Assembly: GCA_024638845.1 (NCBI GenBank)
Contig: JAHEJN010000030.1
Span: 1 to 33,094 of the forward strand
DNA from: Acidimicrobiales bacterium
GTDB taxonomy: Bacteria > Actinomycetota > Acidimicrobiia > Acidimicrobiales > JAHEJN01
Direction of reading: 5' to 3'
Length of the DNA stretch: 33,094 nucleotides
The notes below the pieces were generated by a model. The model did not search any database, had not been told where the DNA came from, and saw only the letters and a program-made list of their open reading frames with translations. This document shows, piece by piece, positions 1,378 through 8,266 of this stretch. Made by a program: the position numbers and the translations under genes. Numbering within the stretch: the stretch's first letter is position 1; each line of letters starts with the position of its first letter.

Positions 1378-3030
1378 TCAAGCCGCGTCGTGCAACAGCC
1401 CGAACACGATCGAGTCGATGAGCGCCTGCCAGCTCGCCTCCACGACGTTCTCGCTCACACCGATCGTCGTCCAGGTCCGACGCCCGTTCGAGCTCTCGAT
1501 GAGCACCCGGGTGACGGCGGCGGTCCCCTTCTCGGCGGCCAGGACCCGCACCTTGAAGTCCGTGAGCTTGATGCGGTGCACCGTCGGGTACTGATCCCCG
1601 ATGGCCACCATGAGCGCCTCGTGCAACGCGTCGACGGGACCGTTGCCCTCGCCGGTGGCGATGATGCGCTGACCCCCGACGTGGAGCTTCACTGTCGCCT
1701 CGGTCTCCATGTCGACGGCGACGTCGTTCCACGCCCGCGCGCCCGAGCCCGATCGGTGCTCGGTGTGGACCTTGAACGACTCGAGATCGAAGAAGGGCTG
1801 CACCCAGCCGGAGGCGCCACGCAAGAGGAGCTCGAGCGATGCGTCGGCGACCTCGAAGTGGTAGCCCTCGTGTTCGAGACGCTTCAGGGTGTCGACAACG
1901 GCGCCCACCTGGGCCTTGTCGAGCGCCAGGCCGTATTCGGATGCCTTGAGCTCGATGGTTGCCCGACCCGACAGATCGCCCACGAGATAGCGGGTGCCGT
2001 TGCCGACCGCCCCGGGATCGACGTGCTCGTAGCTGTCGGGACGACGAGCCAGGGCCGACGTGTGCAGTCCGGCCTTGTGGGCGAAAGCGGAGGTGCCGAC
2101 GTAGGGCAGCTGGTGCTGCTGGGGCATGTTCATCAGCTCAGCGATGCTGTGGCTGATGTCGGTGAGTCGTTCGAGGCGACCCGGCGGCAGGGTCTCGATG
2201 CCCATCTTCAGGGTGAGGTCGGGCACGAGCTGGGTGATGTCGCAGTTGCCGGTGCGCTCGCCGTACCCGTTCATCGTCACCTGCACGTGCGTCGCCCCGG
2301 CAACCACGCCGGCGATGGCATTGGCGGTCGCACATCCGGTGTCGTTCTGGGTGTGCATGCCGATGCGGACGCCGGAGAAGTGCTCCACGATCTCGGCGAC
2401 GATCGGCCCGACCTCGTGGGGCAATGAACCGCCGTTGGTGTCGCACAACACGAGCGTGTCGACTCCAGAGGTCGCGGCGGCCTCGAGCACGCGCATCGCG
2501 AACTCGGGATTGCGCTTGTAGCCGTCGAAGAAGTGCTCGGCGTCGAAGAAGACGTCGAGGCCCTTTCCTTTCAGGAAGGCGACCGACTCCCCCACCATCG
2601 CCACGGCCTCGTCGAGGGTCGTACGCAGTGCATGGGTCACGTGGTAGTCCCACGACTTGCCCACGATGCAGGCCACACCTACTCCGGACGCAGCCAGAAC
2701 CTCCAGGGTCGGGTCCTCGTCGACCCGACCCTTGGGTCGGCGGGTCGATCCGAAGGCGACCAGGCGGGCCGACTCGAGGCGGAGCTCGGTCCGGGCCCGC
2801 TCGAAGAACTCGGTGTCCTTGGGGTTGGCCGCGGGATACCCGCCCTCGATGTAGTGCACCCCGAGCTCGTCGAGCTTGCGGGCCACCCGGATCTTGTCGT
2901 CGGCATTCACGGCGATGCCCTCGAACTGCACGCCGTCGCGCAGGGTGGTGTCGAAGATCTCGACGGCGGTCGGCCATGACGGATCGTGGTGGGCGGACCG
3001 ATCGACCGGCTCGACGGCATCGGCGGCCAT
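1378..3030 (-). CDS. cimA: (R)-citramalate synthase (LeuA/CimA family)
   Basis: The 550-residue protein should condense pyruvate and acetyl-CoA to citramalate, the first step of threonine-independent isoleucine synthesis. The HMGL/LeuA-type TIM barrel begins with DTTLRDG (27-33), and the signature GYGERTGN follows the metal site. A C-terminal LeuA-type regulatory domain (about 390-550) is present, as in CimA proteins. The start is ATG 3030, one base after the leuB stop, with GGTGGA upstream, which indicates translational coupling. Oddly, the metal-binding motif is HTQND (His226-Thr-Gln228-Asn229-Asp), whereas LeuA and CimA proteins normally have His-x-His-Asn-Asp. It sits in an operon with leuB behind an Ile-rich leader peptide, which favours citramalate over isopropylmalate synthase activity. 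A homocitrate or other 2-acyl synthase role is less likely. Confidence 0.9.
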   Translation of the reverse strand: MAADAVEPVDRSAHHDPSWPTAVEIFDTTLRDGVQFEGIAVNADDKIRVARKLDELGVHYIEGGYPAANPKDTEFFERARTELRLESARLVAFGSTRRPKGRVDEDPTLEVLAASGVGVACIVGKSWDYHVTHALRTTLDEAVAMVGESVAFLKGKGLDVFFDAEHFFDGYKRNPEFAMRVLEAAATSGVDTLVLCDTNGGSLPHEVGPIVAEIVEHFSGVRIGMHTQNDTGCATANAIAGVVAGATHVQVTMNGYGERTGNCDITQLVPDLTLKMGIETLPPGRLERLTDISHSIAELMNMPQQHQLPYVGTSAFAHKAGLHTSALARRPDSYEHVDPGAVGNGTRYLVGDLSGRATIELKASEYGLALDKAQVGAVVDTLKRLEHEGYHFEVADASLELLLRGASGWVQPFFDLESFKVHTEHRSGSGARAWNDVAVDMETEATVKLHVGGQRIIATGEGNGPVDALHEALMVAIGDQYPTVHRIKLTDFKVRVLAAEKGTAAVTRVLIESSNGRRTWTTIGVSENVVEASWQALIDSIVFGLLHDAA

Positions 3031-3031
3031 G

Positions 3032-4018
3032 TCAGCGTCCACCGGTGAGCTCGTCGACGATGGCCCGACCGATCTCGGTCGTCGACCCCGGGTGATCGGC
3101 ATAGGCACCACAGGCGGCGCGGATGCGGTCGGCTGCCTCACCCTCACCGAGGTGGTCGAGCATCAGCGCACCGGACAGGATCGCGGCGATGGGGTTGGCC
3201 TCGTCCCGGCCGGCGATGTCGGGCGCCGACCCGTGCACCGGCTCGAACATCGACACCCCACCGGGTCGCAGGTTCGCCGAGCTGGCGAGCCCGATGCCCC
3301 CCGACACGGCGCCGCCGAGATCGGTGAGGATGTCGCCGAAGAGGTTGTCGGTGACGATCACGTCGTAGCGCTGGGGCTCTTGCACGAAGTAGATGCACGC
3401 GGCATCGACGTGGTTGTAGGCGGTGTCGACCCGGGGATACTCCCCTGCCACCTCGTCGAAGGTGCGCGCCCAGAGATCGCCGGAGAACGTGAGCACGTTG
3501 GTCTTGTGCACGAGCGTGAGATGACGGCGCGGCCGACCGTCGGCCAGCTCGAACGCGTAGCGCACGCACCGCTCGACCCCGTGGCGGGTGTTCACCGACC
3601 CCTGCGTGGCGATCTCATGGGGAGAGCTCTTGCGCAGGAAACCTCCTTCGCCGGCGTAGGTGCCCTCGGTGTTCTCACGGATCACGACGAACTCGTGCGA
3701 ACCCTCCAACACGAAGGGCCGCTGGTTGATGTAGAGGTCGAGGTCGAAGCGCATCTTGAGCAGCAACCCGCGCTCGATCACGCCCGGCGGCACGTCGGGA
3801 GTGCCCACGGCGCCGAGGTAGAGGGCATCGAGCTCACGCCACTCGTCGACGATCTCGTCGGTGAGCACGACCCCATCGCGCAGATAGCGCGCACCGCCGA
3901 GGTCGTAGTCGACCGTGTCGAGCTCGACGCCGGTCGCGGCGATCACGTCGAGGCCGACGGCGATCACCTCGGGGCCGATGCCATCGCCGCCGATCACGCC
4001 GATGCGATGAGTTGTCAC
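3032..4018 (-). CDS. leuB: 3-isopropylmalate dehydrogenase
   Basis: This 328-residue NAD-dependent beta-decarboxylating dehydrogenase oxidises 3-isopropylmalate in leucine synthesis and also 3-methylmalate in the citramalate route to isoleucine. The sequence shows the N-terminal IGVIGGDGIGPEV motif, the ENTEGTYAGEGG substrate-site segment, the YDVIVTDNLFGDILTDL motif with metal-binding aspartates, and the C-terminal HGSAPDIAG nucleotide-binding loop, all in the expected order. The start is GTG 4018 because a GGAGG site lies 6 bases upstream. An in-frame codon further upstream (4063) would run through the terminator hairpin and is rejected. It is the first structural gene after the attenuator leader and is followed by cimA one base after its stop. 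Its length is slightly short of the usual 340-360, as in the shorter actinobacterial LeuB type. Confidence 0.96.
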   Translation of the reverse strand: MTTHRIGVIGGDGIGPEVIAVGLDVIAATGVELDTVDYDLGGARYLRDGVVLTDEIVDEWRELDALYLGAVGTPDVPPGVIERGLLLKMRFDLDLYINQRPFVLEGSHEFVVIRENTEGTYAGEGGFLRKSSPHEIATQGSVNTRHGVERCVRYAFELADGRPRRHLTLVHKTNVLTFSGDLWARTFDEVAGEYPRVDTAYNHVDAACIYFVQEPQRYDVIVTDNLFGDILTDLGGAVSGGIGLASSANLRPGGVSMFEPVHGSAPDIAGRDEANPIAAILSGALMLDHLGEGEAADRIRAACGAYADHPGSTTEIGRAIVDELTGGR

Positions 4019-4021
4019 GAG

Positions 4022-4030
4022 TCCTCCAGA
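4022..4030 (-). promoter_or_regulatory. leuB ribosome binding site that fixes the GTG start
   Basis: On the minus strand TCTGGAGGA ends just before the GTG at 4018. It lies downstream of the terminator hairpin, so leuB translation requires read-through of the attenuator. Confidence 0.8.
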
Positions 4031-4048: not shown

Positions 4049-4076
4049 AACAAAACCGCCCACCAGGGTGGACGGT
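4049..4076 (-). terminator. intrinsic terminator (attenuator) upstream of leuB
   Basis: On the minus strand ACCGTCCAC (4076-4068) pairs with GTGGGCGGT (4063-4055), with one G:U pair and a CCTG loop. TTTTGTT follows (4055-4049). This is a standard Rho-independent terminator placed between a short leader ORF and the leuB ribosome site, where it can only act to attenuate leuB-cimA. Confidence 0.85.
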
Positions 4077-4083
4077 CGGTGAA

Positions 4084-4106
4084 GCGCACGGCGGGTCGCC
4101 GCGCGC
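4084..4106 (-). promoter_or_regulatory. GC-rich hairpin directly after the leader-peptide stop codon
   Basis: On the minus strand GCGCGCGGCG (4106-4097) and CGCCGTGCGC (4093-4084) form a 10-bp stem with one G:U pair and an ACC loop. The first base of the stem is the last base of the leader TAG codon, so a ribosome at the Ile codons or at the stop would cover or melt the left arm. It is the expected pause or 1:2 type hairpin of an attenuator. I see only a 5-bp alternative pairing (CCGCC 4094-4090 with GGCGG 4060-4056) as a candidate antiterminator. Confidence 0.7.
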
Positions 4107-4165
4107 TAACGAATGATGATGATCGCTGCGACGTGCAGGTGGAGAGGGCGCGAGATGCGAACCAC
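4106..4165 (-). CDS. leuB-cimA leader peptide (19 residues, four consecutive Ile codons)
   Basis: The peptide reads MVRISRPLHLHVAAIIIIR from a GTG start. The four Ile codons (ATC ATC ATC ATT) lie one codon before the TAG stop. Val, Leu and Ile make up about half of the residues. A -10-like GACAAT ends 7 bases before the GTG with TTGACG 18 bases further upstream, so the mRNA would be leaderless. A GC hairpin starts at the stop codon and an intrinsic terminator follows about 30 bases later, before the leuB ribosome site. This is the layout of ribosome-mediated transcription attenuation: scarce charged tRNA-Ile would stall the ribosome and favour read-through. The Ile run fits the downstream citramalate route. 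The peptide itself is unlikely to have a function. The sequence layout is direct; the mechanism is inference. Confidence 0.8.
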   Translation of the reverse strand: MVRISRPLHLHVAAIIIIR

Positions 4166-4172
4166 GGCGACG

Positions 4173-4202
4173 ATTGTCGCCGGTTCCGGCTCCGAACGTC
4201 AA
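4173..4202 (-). promoter_or_regulatory. promoter of the leader-leuB-cimA transcript
   Basis: On the minus strand the -35 box TTGACG (4202-4197) and the -10-like box GACAAT (4178-4173) are separated by 18 bases. The leader GTG starts 7 bases after the -10 box, so transcription and translation probably begin at the same base. The -35 box lies about 30 bases from the greA -10 box on the other strand. Confidence 0.7.
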
Positions 4203-4243: not shown

Positions 4244-4714
4244 ATGGCGTCGACCACCCAGCTCTCCCAGGCGGCCTTCGATCGGCTGAAGGCCGAATTC
4301 GAAGACCTCACCACCCGCGGCCGCATCGACATCGCCCGCAAGATCGAGACCGCGCGCGAGATGGGCGACCTCTCCGAGAACGGCGACTACCACGCCGCCA
4401 AGGAGGAGCAGGGCAAGATGGAGGGGCGCATCATGCACCTCGAGCGCATCCTCGAGAACCACGAGATCGTCGAGGATGCGGGCGACGGAACCGTGAGCGC
4501 CGGCTCGGTCGTGTCCATCCTCTACAAGGGCGACACCGAGCCCGAGAGGTTCCTGGTGGGTTCTATCGAGGAGCGTCGCGACGGCATCGACGTCATCTCC
4601 CCCGGCTCGCCGCTCGGCGCCGCGCTGCTCGGAAGCTCCGTCAGCGACGATGTGGAGTTCGCGTCACCGACGGGTGCCATGCTCACCGTCAAGGTGGTCG
4701 CAATCGGTGAGTGA
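4244..4714 (+). CDS. greA: transcription elongation factor GreA
   Basis: The 156-residue protein is of normal GreA length. GreA enters the secondary channel of RNA polymerase and stimulates cleavage of backtracked RNA. The N-terminal coiled coil (about 5-78) contains the tip segment MGDLSENGDYHAAKEEQ with the two conserved acidic residues (Asp42, Glu45) that hold the catalytic magnesium. The C-terminal FKBP-like domain (about 85-156) contains ISPGSPLGAALLG, typical of GreA. The start is ATG 4244, set by homology of the N terminus and by a -10 box 7 bases upstream. The downstream hydrolase overlaps its end through GTGAGTGA, so the two are likely co-transcribed. Confidence 0.97.
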   Translation: MASTTQLSQAAFDRLKAEFEDLTTRGRIDIARKIETAREMGDLSENGDYHAAKEEQGKMEGRIMHLERILENHEIVEDAGDGTVSAGSVVSILYKGDTEPERFLVGSIEERRDGIDVISPGSPLGAALLGSSVSDDVEFASPTGAMLTVKVVAIGE

Positions 4715-5582
4715 GACGGGCCCTGGCGGCCTCGCCGCCAGCATCACCGAGCCACCCGATCTGCAACCTGCGGGCCGCGTCGATCTTCCCGGTCGAGGCT
4801 CGTTGCCCGTCCGCGACATGGGCCCGGCCGATGCCCCGGTGGTGATGATGCTGCACGGCTGGACGGTCACGGCCGACCTCAACTACTTCGGCCAGTATCC
4901 GGCTCTGCGCGACCGCTACCGGGTGATCGCCTTCGACCACGCGGGACACGGCAGCGGGCTGCGCCCGCGACGTCGGGTGAGCGTGAAGAGCCTGGCCGAC
5001 GACGCCGTTGCGGTGGCCGACGCACTGGACGTGAAGACCTTCGTACCGTTCGGGTATTCCCTGGGTGGCGCCGTGGCCCAGGTGATGGCGCGCCGTCACG
5101 CCGATCGCCTCGCCGGCCTCGTGCTCGCGGCAACCATTCCCCGATTCCGGGCGAGCGACCTGCGGTTGTGGCCCGGCATCATGTTCGGCACCGCCACGGC
5201 GACCCGCATCGTTCCCGACGCCCTCGTCGACCGAGTGTTCGGGCGCATGCTCGCCCGACGCACCGCGGGTCTGCACCCGTGGGGGGTCGATCAGCTGAAG
5301 CACAACGATCCGCGCATCCTGCTCGAGGTGGGTTCGTCGCTGTTCAACCACGACAGCCGCCACTGGCTCCCCGACATCACCGCGCCGGCTGCGGTGGTGA
5401 TCACCGAGGACGACTCGAAGGTCAGGCCACAGATTCAGCGCTCCCTTGCCGAGCTCATCCCCGGTACCACCCTGCATCCGGTGCCCGGTGAGCACGCCGC
5501 CCCGGTCACCGCACCTGCGGAGTTCAACGAGGGTCTGCTCGACGCCCTCGACTCGGTGCACTCGCGTTCAACCGACGGCTGA
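4707..5582 (+). CDS. alpha/beta-hydrolase fold protein
   Basis: This 291-residue protein has the alpha/beta-hydrolase layout: an oxyanion-hole HGW (50-52), FDHAGHG (77-82), a nucleophile elbow GYSLGG with Ser118, a late acidic segment ITEDDSKV, and a C-terminal catalytic His in GEHAAP. The triad is therefore complete. The substrate cannot be told from the sequence; close relatives include esterases, lipases and C-C hydrolases. No signal peptide is present, so it should be cytoplasmic. The start is GTG 4707, which overlaps the greA stop by 8 bases and has AAGGTGG upstream. Its 3' end overlaps the convergent IclR gene by 15 bases. Confidence 0.88.
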   Translation: MSETGPGGLAASITEPPDLQPAGRVDLPGRGSLPVRDMGPADAPVVMMLHGWTVTADLNYFGQYPALRDRYRVIAFDHAGHGSGLRPRRRVSVKSLADDAVAVADALDVKTFVPFGYSLGGAVAQVMARRHADRLAGLVLAATIPRFRASDLRLWPGIMFGTATATRIVPDALVDRVFGRMLARRTAGLHPWGVDQLKHNDPRILLEVGSSLFNHDSRHWLPDITAPAAVVITEDDSKVRPQIQRSLAELIPGTTLHPVPGEHAAPVTAPAEFNEGLLDALDSVHSRSTDG

Positions 5583-6203
5583 GGCGGCGGCGGCCACCGG
5601 CGGACCGAAGCGGGCACCCGGGTCGGTCGTCATCCGCTCGATCGGCCCCGACACGCTGATGGCGGCCACGACCCGACCCTCGACCACGACCGGCGCGCTG
5701 ACCGAGGCCACGCCCGCCTCACGCTCGGCCACGCTGACCACGAAGCCGATATCGGGCTCGGTCTCGCCCTGTAGCACCCGTCCACCCGAGCCCTGGTCGA
5801 GGGGGAGGACCGCTCCGTTCGGAACGATGGTGCGGAGGCCGTGGGGCGATTCCAGCGACGCCACGCACACGCGGCTGTCACCGTCTCGGACGAACAACTG
5901 CACGCTCTCGCCGGTGTCGTCGCGCAGTCGGGCGAGCACCGGCCGGGCGCCATCGATGAGCGGCAGCGACGCCCCCACCCCTCGGGCCAGCGACAGGGCT
6001 CGATAGCCGATGGTGAAGCGGCCGTCATCGTCGCGCCGCAGCATGCCGTGCACCTCCAGCGCCGTGGCCAGGCGATGAGCGGTGGCTCGGCTCTGGCCGG
6101 TGACCACCACCAACTGGGCCAGAGCCAGCGGCTCGACCTCGACCGCCGCGATGATGGCCATGGCCTTGTCGATGACGCCGACGCCGCTTAGAGTACGTTC
6201 CAT
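5568..6203 (-). CDS. ndgR: IclR-family regulator divergent from leuCD (NdgR/AreB type)
   Basis: The 211-residue protein has an N-terminal winged helix-turn-helix (about 5-65, with the recognition segment around QSRATAHRLATAL) and a C-terminal IclR effector domain containing SVQLFVRDGD and VPNGAVLPLDQGSGGRVL. In streptomycetes and corynebacteria, an IclR protein of this kind (NdgR, LtbR) lies divergent to leuCD and controls branched-chain amino-acid genes. The same arrangement here supports the assignment. The start is ATG 6203; an AT-rich -10 box ends 8 bases upstream and there is no ribosome site, so it is probably leaderless. A palindrome overlaps its -10 box, which implies self-regulation. 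It is slightly shorter than typical IclR proteins (about 240). Confidence 0.85.
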   Translation of the reverse strand: MERTLSGVGVIDKAMAIIAAVEVEPLALAQLVVVTGQSRATAHRLATALEVHGMLRRDDDGRFTIGYRALSLARGVGASLPLIDGARPVLARLRDDTGESVQLFVRDGDSRVCVASLESPHGLRTIVPNGAVLPLDQGSGGRVLQGETEPDIGFVVSVAEREAGVASVSAPVVVEGRVVAAISVSGPIERMTTDPGARFGPPVAAAASAVG

Positions 6204-6257: not shown

Positions 6258-7670
6258 ATGGGAAAGAAGCCCAGCCAGACGCTCAGCCAGAAGGTGTGGG
6301 ACGACCACGTCGTGCGCCACGGGCACGGCCAGCCCGATCTGCTGTACATCGACCTGCACCTCGTGCACGAGGTGACCTCGCCACAGGCGTTCGACGGCTT
6401 GCGTCTCGGCAGCCGACGGGTTCGGCGCCCCGATCTCACCATCGCCACCGAGGACCACAACATCCCCACGGCGAACATCGACCGGCCCATCGCCGATCCG
6501 GTATCGCTCACCCAGGTGAACACCCTTCGCAGCAACTGTGCCGAGTTCGGCATCCGTCTGTTCAGCATGGGTCAGCGAAACAACGGCATCGTGCACGTGA
6601 TCGGACCCGAGCTCGGCCTCACCCAACCGGGCATGACCGTGGTCTGCGGCGACAGCCACACCTCCACCCACGGGGCGTTCGGCGCGCTCGCTTTCGGCAT
6701 CGGTACGAGCGAGGTCGAGCACGTGTTGGCCACCCAGACGCTCCCGCAGCCGCCGCAGGAGACCATGTCGATCACCATCACCGGTGAGCTTCCCGCCGGC
6801 TCGACCGCCAAGGACGTCGTGCTCGCCGTCCTCGGCGAGGTCGGCACCGGCGGCGGCATCGGTGCCATCGCCGAGTTCCGCGGCCCGGTGATCGAGGCGC
6901 TGTCGATGGAAGGCCGCATGACGGTGTGCAACATGGCCATCGAGTTCGGCGCCAAGGCCGGTCTCATTGCTCCCGATGCCACCACGTTCGACTACCTGAG
7001 GGATCGCCCCCACGCCCCGTCGGGCCCCGAGTGGGACGCTGCGGTCGAGGCCTGGTCGCGGCTACGCACCGACGACGACGCCGTCTTCGACCGCGAGGTG
7101 GTGATCGACGGCTCCACCATCACCCCGCACGTCACCTGGGGTACCAACCCGGGGCAGGTCATCCGCCTCGGCGACACGATCCCGGGCCCCGACGACTTCG
7201 ACGACCCGGCCGAGAAGGACGCCGCCGCACGAGCGCTCGAGTACATGGGCTTCGCCGCCGGCACACCGATCAACGACATCGCCGTCGACACGGTCTTCAT
7301 CGGGAGTTGCACCAACAGTCGCATCGAAGACCTCCGGGCCGCGGCCGCGGTGGCCGTAGGTCGTCGGGTCGCCGACGGCGTGCGCACCCTGGTGGTCCCG
7401 GGTTCGGGACTGGTCAAGGAGCAAGCGGAACGCGAAGGGCTGCACGACGTCTTCGTCGCGGCCGGGTTCGACTGGCGAGAACCGGGTTGTTCGATGTGTC
7501 TGGCCATGAATCCCGACAAGCTCGCGGTCGGTGAGCGCGCCGCGAGCACCAGCAACCGGAACTTCGAGGGGCGGCAGGGTCGAGGAGGACGCACCCACCT
7601 CGTCTCCCCCGCCGTGGCCGCCGCCACCGCAATCGCCGGGCACTTCGCCACACCGGAGGATCTCGCATGA
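6258..7670 (+). CDS. leuC: 3-isopropylmalate dehydratase, large subunit
   Basis: The 470-residue protein is the [4Fe-4S] subunit of isopropylmalate isomerase, which converts 2- to 3-isopropylmalate and also acts on citramalate in the isoleucine route. The cluster ligands are visible as Cys351 (GSCTNSR) and Cys411 and Cys414 (GCSMCLAMN). The family segments [35 protein letters not shown] and NRNFEGRQG are intact. The start is ATG 6258 with TGAGGCGG about 8-9 bases upstream. leuD overlaps its end by ATGA, so the two subunits are made together. Expression is probably controlled by the divergent IclR regulator. Confidence 0.97.
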
Positions 7671-8266
7671 GGGCCGTTCGCATCGTGCAGGGAACCGCGG
7701 TTCCGCTCGACCGCTCCGACGTCGACACCGATCAGATCATCCCGTCGGACTGGCTCAAGCGCGTCGAACGAACCGGATTCGAGAAGGGGTTGTTCTCGGA
7801 ATGGCGCGACGAGCCGTCGTTCGTCCTCAACCGCGAGGAGTATGCAGGCGCCAACATCCTCCTCGCCGGCCCCAACTTCGGCACCGGTTCGTCTCGGGAG
7901 CACGCCGTCTGGGCCATACAGCAGTACGGCTTCGAGGCGGTGATCTCGTCGCGATTCGGACCGATCTTCAAGAACAACGCCACCAAGAACGGACTGGTTC
8001 CGGTCGAAGTGGGCGCCGACATCGCCCAGCGGCTGCTCGAGGCCGTGGCCACCGACCCGAGCATCGAGCTGACCATCGACGTGCAGCGACGCACCCTCGA
8101 GGTGCCCGCCCTCGGCGTCGACACGACGTTTCCGCTCGACGAATCGGTGGTGGAGCGTTTCCTCGAGGGACTCGACGACATCGGCATCACGTTGCGCTCC
8201 GCCGACGCCATCGACGACTTCGAGTCGAGGCGTCCGGCCTGGCTCCCGTCGACTCCGGCCGGCTGA
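7667..8266 (+). CDS. leuD: 3-isopropylmalate dehydratase, small subunit
   Basis: The 199-residue protein is the swivelling small subunit that partners LeuC. It carries the N-terminal [12 protein letters not shown] segment and the conserved [37 protein letters not shown] block, here from about residue 67. The start ATG overlaps the leuC stop (ATGA). Length is normal. A hairpin immediately after the stop is a likely terminator. Confidence 0.96.

Follow-up and report, generated by a model that had tools for sequence, protein, structure and literature searches.

The genes leuB and cimA lie on the minus strand of a 33,094-nucleotide stretch of Acidimicrobiales DNA, the whole of which is referred to below as the window. 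The likely start codon of cimA almost touches the stop codon of leuB, so the two genes probably form one operon; LeuB also acts in the citramalate route. Upstream of leuB there is a promoter, a GTG-started reading frame of 19 codons rich in isoleucine, a hairpin abutting its stop codon, a terminator and the ribosome-binding site of leuB (Table 1). These parts had been proposed in the original prediction, and each was recovered at the position assigned to it. The terminator was likewise present, although its stem, given there as 9 bp, was found by the scan to contain 10 pairs.

Table 1. Features of the leuB leader region and neighbouring genes, in window coordinates.
Feature	Position	Strand	Remarks
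-35 hexamer TTGACG	4197..4202	-	read directly; leader promoter
-10 hexamer GACAAT	4173..4178	-	read directly; 7 nt 5′ of leader GTG
Leader peptide ORF, MVRISRPLHLHVAAIIIIR-stop	4106..4165	-	GTG 4165-4163, TAG 4108-4106; 19 sense codons
Four Ile codons, ATC ATC ATC ATT	4112..4123	-	followed by CGT and TAG; the last, codon -2 from the stop, is the best conserved
Hairpin 1	4084..4106	-	10 pairs; its first base is the G of the stop codon TAG
Intrinsic terminator	4049..4077	-	stem 4077-4054, T-rich tail TTTTGTT to 4049
Shine-Dalgarno GGAGG of leuB	4023..4027	-	read directly
leuB, 3-isopropylmalate dehydrogenase family	3032..4018	-	GTG start at 4018; NF002898, 455 bits (cut-off 393); PF00180
cimA, citramalate synthase	1378..3030	-	TIGR00977, 637 bits; likely ATG at 3030
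greA-like gene, divergent neighbour	4244..4714	+	142 bits, under the 161 cut-off of NF001262; context, outside the attenuator

The spacer between the promoter hexamers, read directly on the minus strand, is 18 nt long, and the TTGACG-N18-GACAAT arrangement is the sole promoter-like site between positions 3900 and 4400, where shuffled sequences would be expected to give 0.0. A string of four isoleucine codons, any codon and TAG had a single match across the 3.7-Mb genome; its reversed control had none. With a genome pattern for the hairpin only, the control matched as often as the real pattern; thus the hairpin alone is not diagnostic. The 67-nt RNA folded with a free energy of -37.9 kcal/mol as against -24.7 kcal/mol for shuffled sequences (z = -4.0; 0 of 200 shuffles).

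No threonine deaminase scored over the family cut-off in the genome of the window, which is ~97% complete, so citramalate looks like the only evident isoleucine route of this genome. A close ilvE is also absent from it, the best match to the ilvE of a relative being 33% identical (C213:36965-37813), and a different aminotransferase therefore probably performs that step. Elsewhere in the window, leuC-leuD (6258-8266) diverge from the gene of an IclR-family regulator (5568-6203), with about 55 bp between them and no leader seen; on this layout, control of the leucine branch may differ from that of the isoleucine branch.

Of 148 genomes from the order, 141 had LeuB, and 110 regions upstream of leuB were sampled from this order regardless of their content. 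Using a terminator pattern followed by a covariance model, the element was found in 73 of these 110 regions, with one (L031) cut by a contig end; about one third had no recognisable element. Within the class Acidimicrobiia, the covariance model R1 matched 236 of 395 genomes; across the phylum it matched 45 of 396, and some of these phylum matches are due to chance. The weak phylum matches L203, L205, L207 and L209-L213 were set aside as chance or ordinary terminators, since no branched-chain leader was visible in them. The named relatives are Acidimicrobiia MAGs, including Microthrixaceae and Ilumatobacteraceae, and in most relatives the leader is 10-19 codons long. Conservation in relatives, on which the original prediction had been made to depend, was borne out without contradiction: the terminator, the stop-abutting hairpin and isoleucine at codon -2 are kept across the class.

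Two observations on individual records were made during this survey. In genome G027 (L009), the region upstream of leuB contains a repeated stretch around CTTGCTATGTCAGACTTGACCCC where relatives have the attenuator. Public MAG records titled Bifidobacterium breve (L228, L233, L235, L275, L296) encode a LeuB that shares 71-78% identity with the Acidimicrobiia protein studied here, and the attenuator also occurs in three of them (L228, L235, L275); the titles look wrong.

Compensatory changes, which the original prediction had named as a check, were indeed present. In the alignment of relatives, 96.2% of cells were paired and two-sided changes occurred at 10 of 20 pairs, in both helices; pairing of the whole structure was as high in none of 500 shuffles, and all slid versions were lower too. 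Hairpin 1 was paired in 93.6% of cells and showed changes on both sides in 7 of its 10 pairs. The terminator stem was almost invariant in sequence, an invariance inflated because the first element set was picked by terminator sequence, and two-sided A-U to G-C changes were found at the foot of the stem.

The leaders were first selected by the terminator pattern alone and not by their codons. Among the 72 leuB-type leaders, codon -2 from the stop is isoleucine in 65 and the stop is TAG in 64, and valine or isoleucine is common at codons -5 to -3. In families with cimA apart from leuB, the element precedes cimA and not leuB; isoleucine occupies codons -4 to -2 in 17 of 17 such cimA-first leaders (two of the separate cimA genes were verified against TIGR00977). 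The product of ilvE serves valine, leucine and isoleucine alike. In most leuB-type operons a gene-sized gap of ~950-1100 bases separates leuB from cimA, and in the one operon read this gap contained ilvE (TIGR01122, 433 bits). Valine codons were found in 58 of 62 leaders with an ilvE-sized gap vs 1 of 20 without (Fisher 8e-14, phylogeny ignored), the 20 comprising leuB operons with no gap, the window included, and cimA-first operons. The group lacking valine was drawn from several families. The difference is also seen within the family of the window, where the family mate G052 combines the gap with the codons Ala-Val-Val-Ile, and the window lacks the gap and carries four isoleucine codons.

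In 63 of 72 leaders, the nearest in-frame start had a -10 box 5-10 nt upstream of it, compared with 1-16 of 72 in shifted windows, and with a stricter -10 cut the numbers were 53 of 72 and 0-2, respectively. Because of this spacing, the leader mRNA is predicted to be probably leaderless or near-leaderless.

The same design was found before other genes. In the window's own genome (G000), a Val/Leu leader, MAHASTLVVVLR-TAG, precedes ilvB (contig C189:5426-5504, L113), with a GCGCAC..GTGCGC hairpin and a terminator unlike that of the leuB version. Similar leaders precede ilvB and leuA in other classes. Outside the class, at about position 1500 from the match start, the design was seen in L197, where the leader MSFSQVVIIR precedes a leuB-like gene, and in L204, where a leader ending in NLLLT precedes a leuA-like gene. 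Hairpin 1 adjoins the stop codon in the leuB, cimA and ilvB contexts alike. Terminator sequence varies among these three versions, and the codons and hairpin 1 are retained. It is conceivable, if rather speculative, that this is a design of the Actinomycetota at large, in which a leaderless peptide, a stop codon joined to a hairpin and a terminator would suffice with no conserved antiterminator helix, and in which codon exchange would retune the response among Ile, Ile plus Val, and Val/Leu as operon content changes.

Comparison among relatives establishes the conserved leader, its isoleucine codons, both hairpins, the position of the promoter and the association with cimA. As in ribosome-mediated attenuators, a short predicted leader ORF bears codons for the product of the operon, and an intrinsic terminator lies between the leader and the first gene. 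On this sequence evidence the element is likely to act as a ribosome-mediated attenuator of transcription, with charged tRNA-Ile as the signal and the citramalate route to isoleucine as the target, and the leader would very probably let the cell make isoleucine only when isoleucine is short. The original prediction of an attenuator of leuB-cimA responding to Ile-tRNA is supported by the conserved leader, the association with cimA and a valine content that tracks the ilvE-sized gene.

Ribosome stalling, read-through and the direction of the response, as we infer them, would proceed as follows. RNA polymerase would start at the leader GTG or a few bases from it, so that the ribosome would load at the 5′ end without a Shine-Dalgarno sequence. 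When Ile-tRNA is plentiful, the ribosome would get to the UAG codon and leave, hairpin 1 would form just behind the stop and the terminator would stop transcription. When Ile-tRNA is scarce, the ribosome would stall with an isoleucine codon in the A site, the conserved one being codon -2. A ribosome stalled with codon -2 in the A site would cover the transcript roughly to +6 of the stop. This leading edge would open hairpin 1 at its base and release the C-rich apical arm, which would compete for the terminator's G-rich 3′ arm, and transcription would continue into leuB and cimA. Pairing of the apical arm with the terminator 3′ arm as the switch, in the geometry put forward for Corynebacterium, is a tentative, weakly supported proposal. 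In the leuB type this duplex, the sole one to exceed its null, gave -9.1 vs -8.4 kcal/mol (p = 0.013), a marginal value as one of six uncorrected comparisons, and in the cimA and ilvB types it was not significant.

The original prediction had found no clear antiterminator, and this held: none was conserved by any of four approaches, namely consensus folding, expected segment 2:3 pairs, conserved alternative helices and six duplex energies. RNAalifold gave no antiterminator when the terminator 3′ arm was left out and the footprint of the ribosome was masked, and the terminator 5′ arm had no pairing partner once hairpin 1 was masked. The conserved helices of at least 6 pairs were hairpin 1 and the terminator only, with no alternative, and the segment 2:4, leader:3 and leader:4 pairings did not rise above chance against shuffles. 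These results bear on a classical four-segment attenuator, in which the 5′ arm of hairpin 1 would be covered by the stalled ribosome, leaving the 3′ arm of the hairpin free to pair with the terminator 5′ arm. Such an arrangement is the textbook layout, and masking of the 5′ arm leaves single sequences with a mean of 4.5 such pairs; however, the strength of this segment 2 with segment 3 pairing did not exceed that obtained after shuffling of the 3′ arm in the leuB, cimA or ilvB types and no such helix was found by RNAalifold, and we regard the arrangement as improbable. The conserved segment 2/3 antiterminator that marks the trp-type four-segment class was not found. The same lack of a conserved alternative helix favors a mechanism based on timing, in which hairpin 1 would pause RNA polymerase or gate the ribosome, and a ribosome near the stop would alter the efficiency of termination. 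That hairpin 1 adjoins the stop in each of the three gene contexts also speaks for timing, whereas a pause at hairpin 1 is hypothetical; such a mechanism is possible, though we hold it with reserve.

Two further explanations concern the signal itself. If the terminator were constitutive or controlled by a protein, the hydrophobic codons would be incidental, and a stem near-invariant beyond the needs of folding is what a protein site might look like. Codon identity nevertheless follows the downstream genes, and it is the terminator sequence that differs across the leuB, cimA and ilvB versions while the codons and hairpin 1 stay constant, which leaves this explanation very improbable. Valine, or branched-chain amino acids generally, might be sensed in place of isoleucine, as valine and isoleucine codons are mixed in most leuB-ilvE-cimA leaders; against this, the leaders of the window and of cimA-first operons run in isoleucine with almost no valine, and such a signal is unlikely.

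No covariance model of Rfam 15 gave a relevant match in the window or in eleven related loci. In the literature searched, outside which most subscription papers lay, we found no earlier report of an attenuator or leader for citramalate synthase or of a case from the Acidimicrobiia, a class known mostly from metagenomes. The natural changes of leader codons with downstream genes provide a ready comparative experiment on what the attenuator senses. With no conserved antiterminator found here, an old doubt about the branched-chain attenuators of actinobacteria (PMC1262725) can be tested directly.

In its mode of action the element appears to resemble actinobacterial branched-chain attenuators (PMC1262725, PMC10272879, PMC13236596), yet it fails the classical antiterminator test. 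The LEU element of leuA (PMC1262725) likewise places a leader containing branched-chain codons ahead of an actinobacterial leucine gene. That element is a pseudoknot whose base stem consists of the Leu codons and the Shine-Dalgarno sequence; here there are two simple hairpins, the second being the terminator, and no leucine run, and the LEU element was rejected as an identification. Candidate ilvB leader peptides with terminators were described in Actinobacteria in the same study (PMC1262725), for ilvB only and with the codons overlapping the terminator. They share with the present element a short Ile/Val/Leu ORF and an intrinsic terminator before a branched-chain operon in the same phylum; leuB, cimA and the Acidimicrobiia were not covered there. 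The ilvB1NC attenuator of M. tuberculosis, with LVVI codons, an intrinsic terminator and a short leader RNA seen experimentally (PMC13236596), is alike in its branched-chain codons and intrinsic terminator and differs in its predicted antiterminator, its target and its long, non-leaderless transcript.

The Corynebacterium ilvBNC and ilvB-II leaders share further traits with the element described here: a leader peptide with branched-chain codons whose reading begins at the extreme 5′ end, a first hairpin, and a terminator with U residues after it. In C. glutamicum, translation of the ilvBNC leader is described as needing no ribosome site (Morbach et al. 2000, cited in PMC10272879; PMC11857589), and the antiterminator proposed for ilvB-II pairs the right shoulder of the terminator with the loop of the first hairpin (PMC10272879, PMC11857589). 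The ilvB-II trait of a leader with neither a 5′ untranslated region nor a ribosome site is predicted here too, from the start expected by the -10 position. The ilvBNC system differs in its target, ilvBNC itself, and in its first hairpin, which shares sequence with the reading frame there but comes after the stop codon here; unlike both Corynebacterium leaders, the present one has codons specific for isoleucine.
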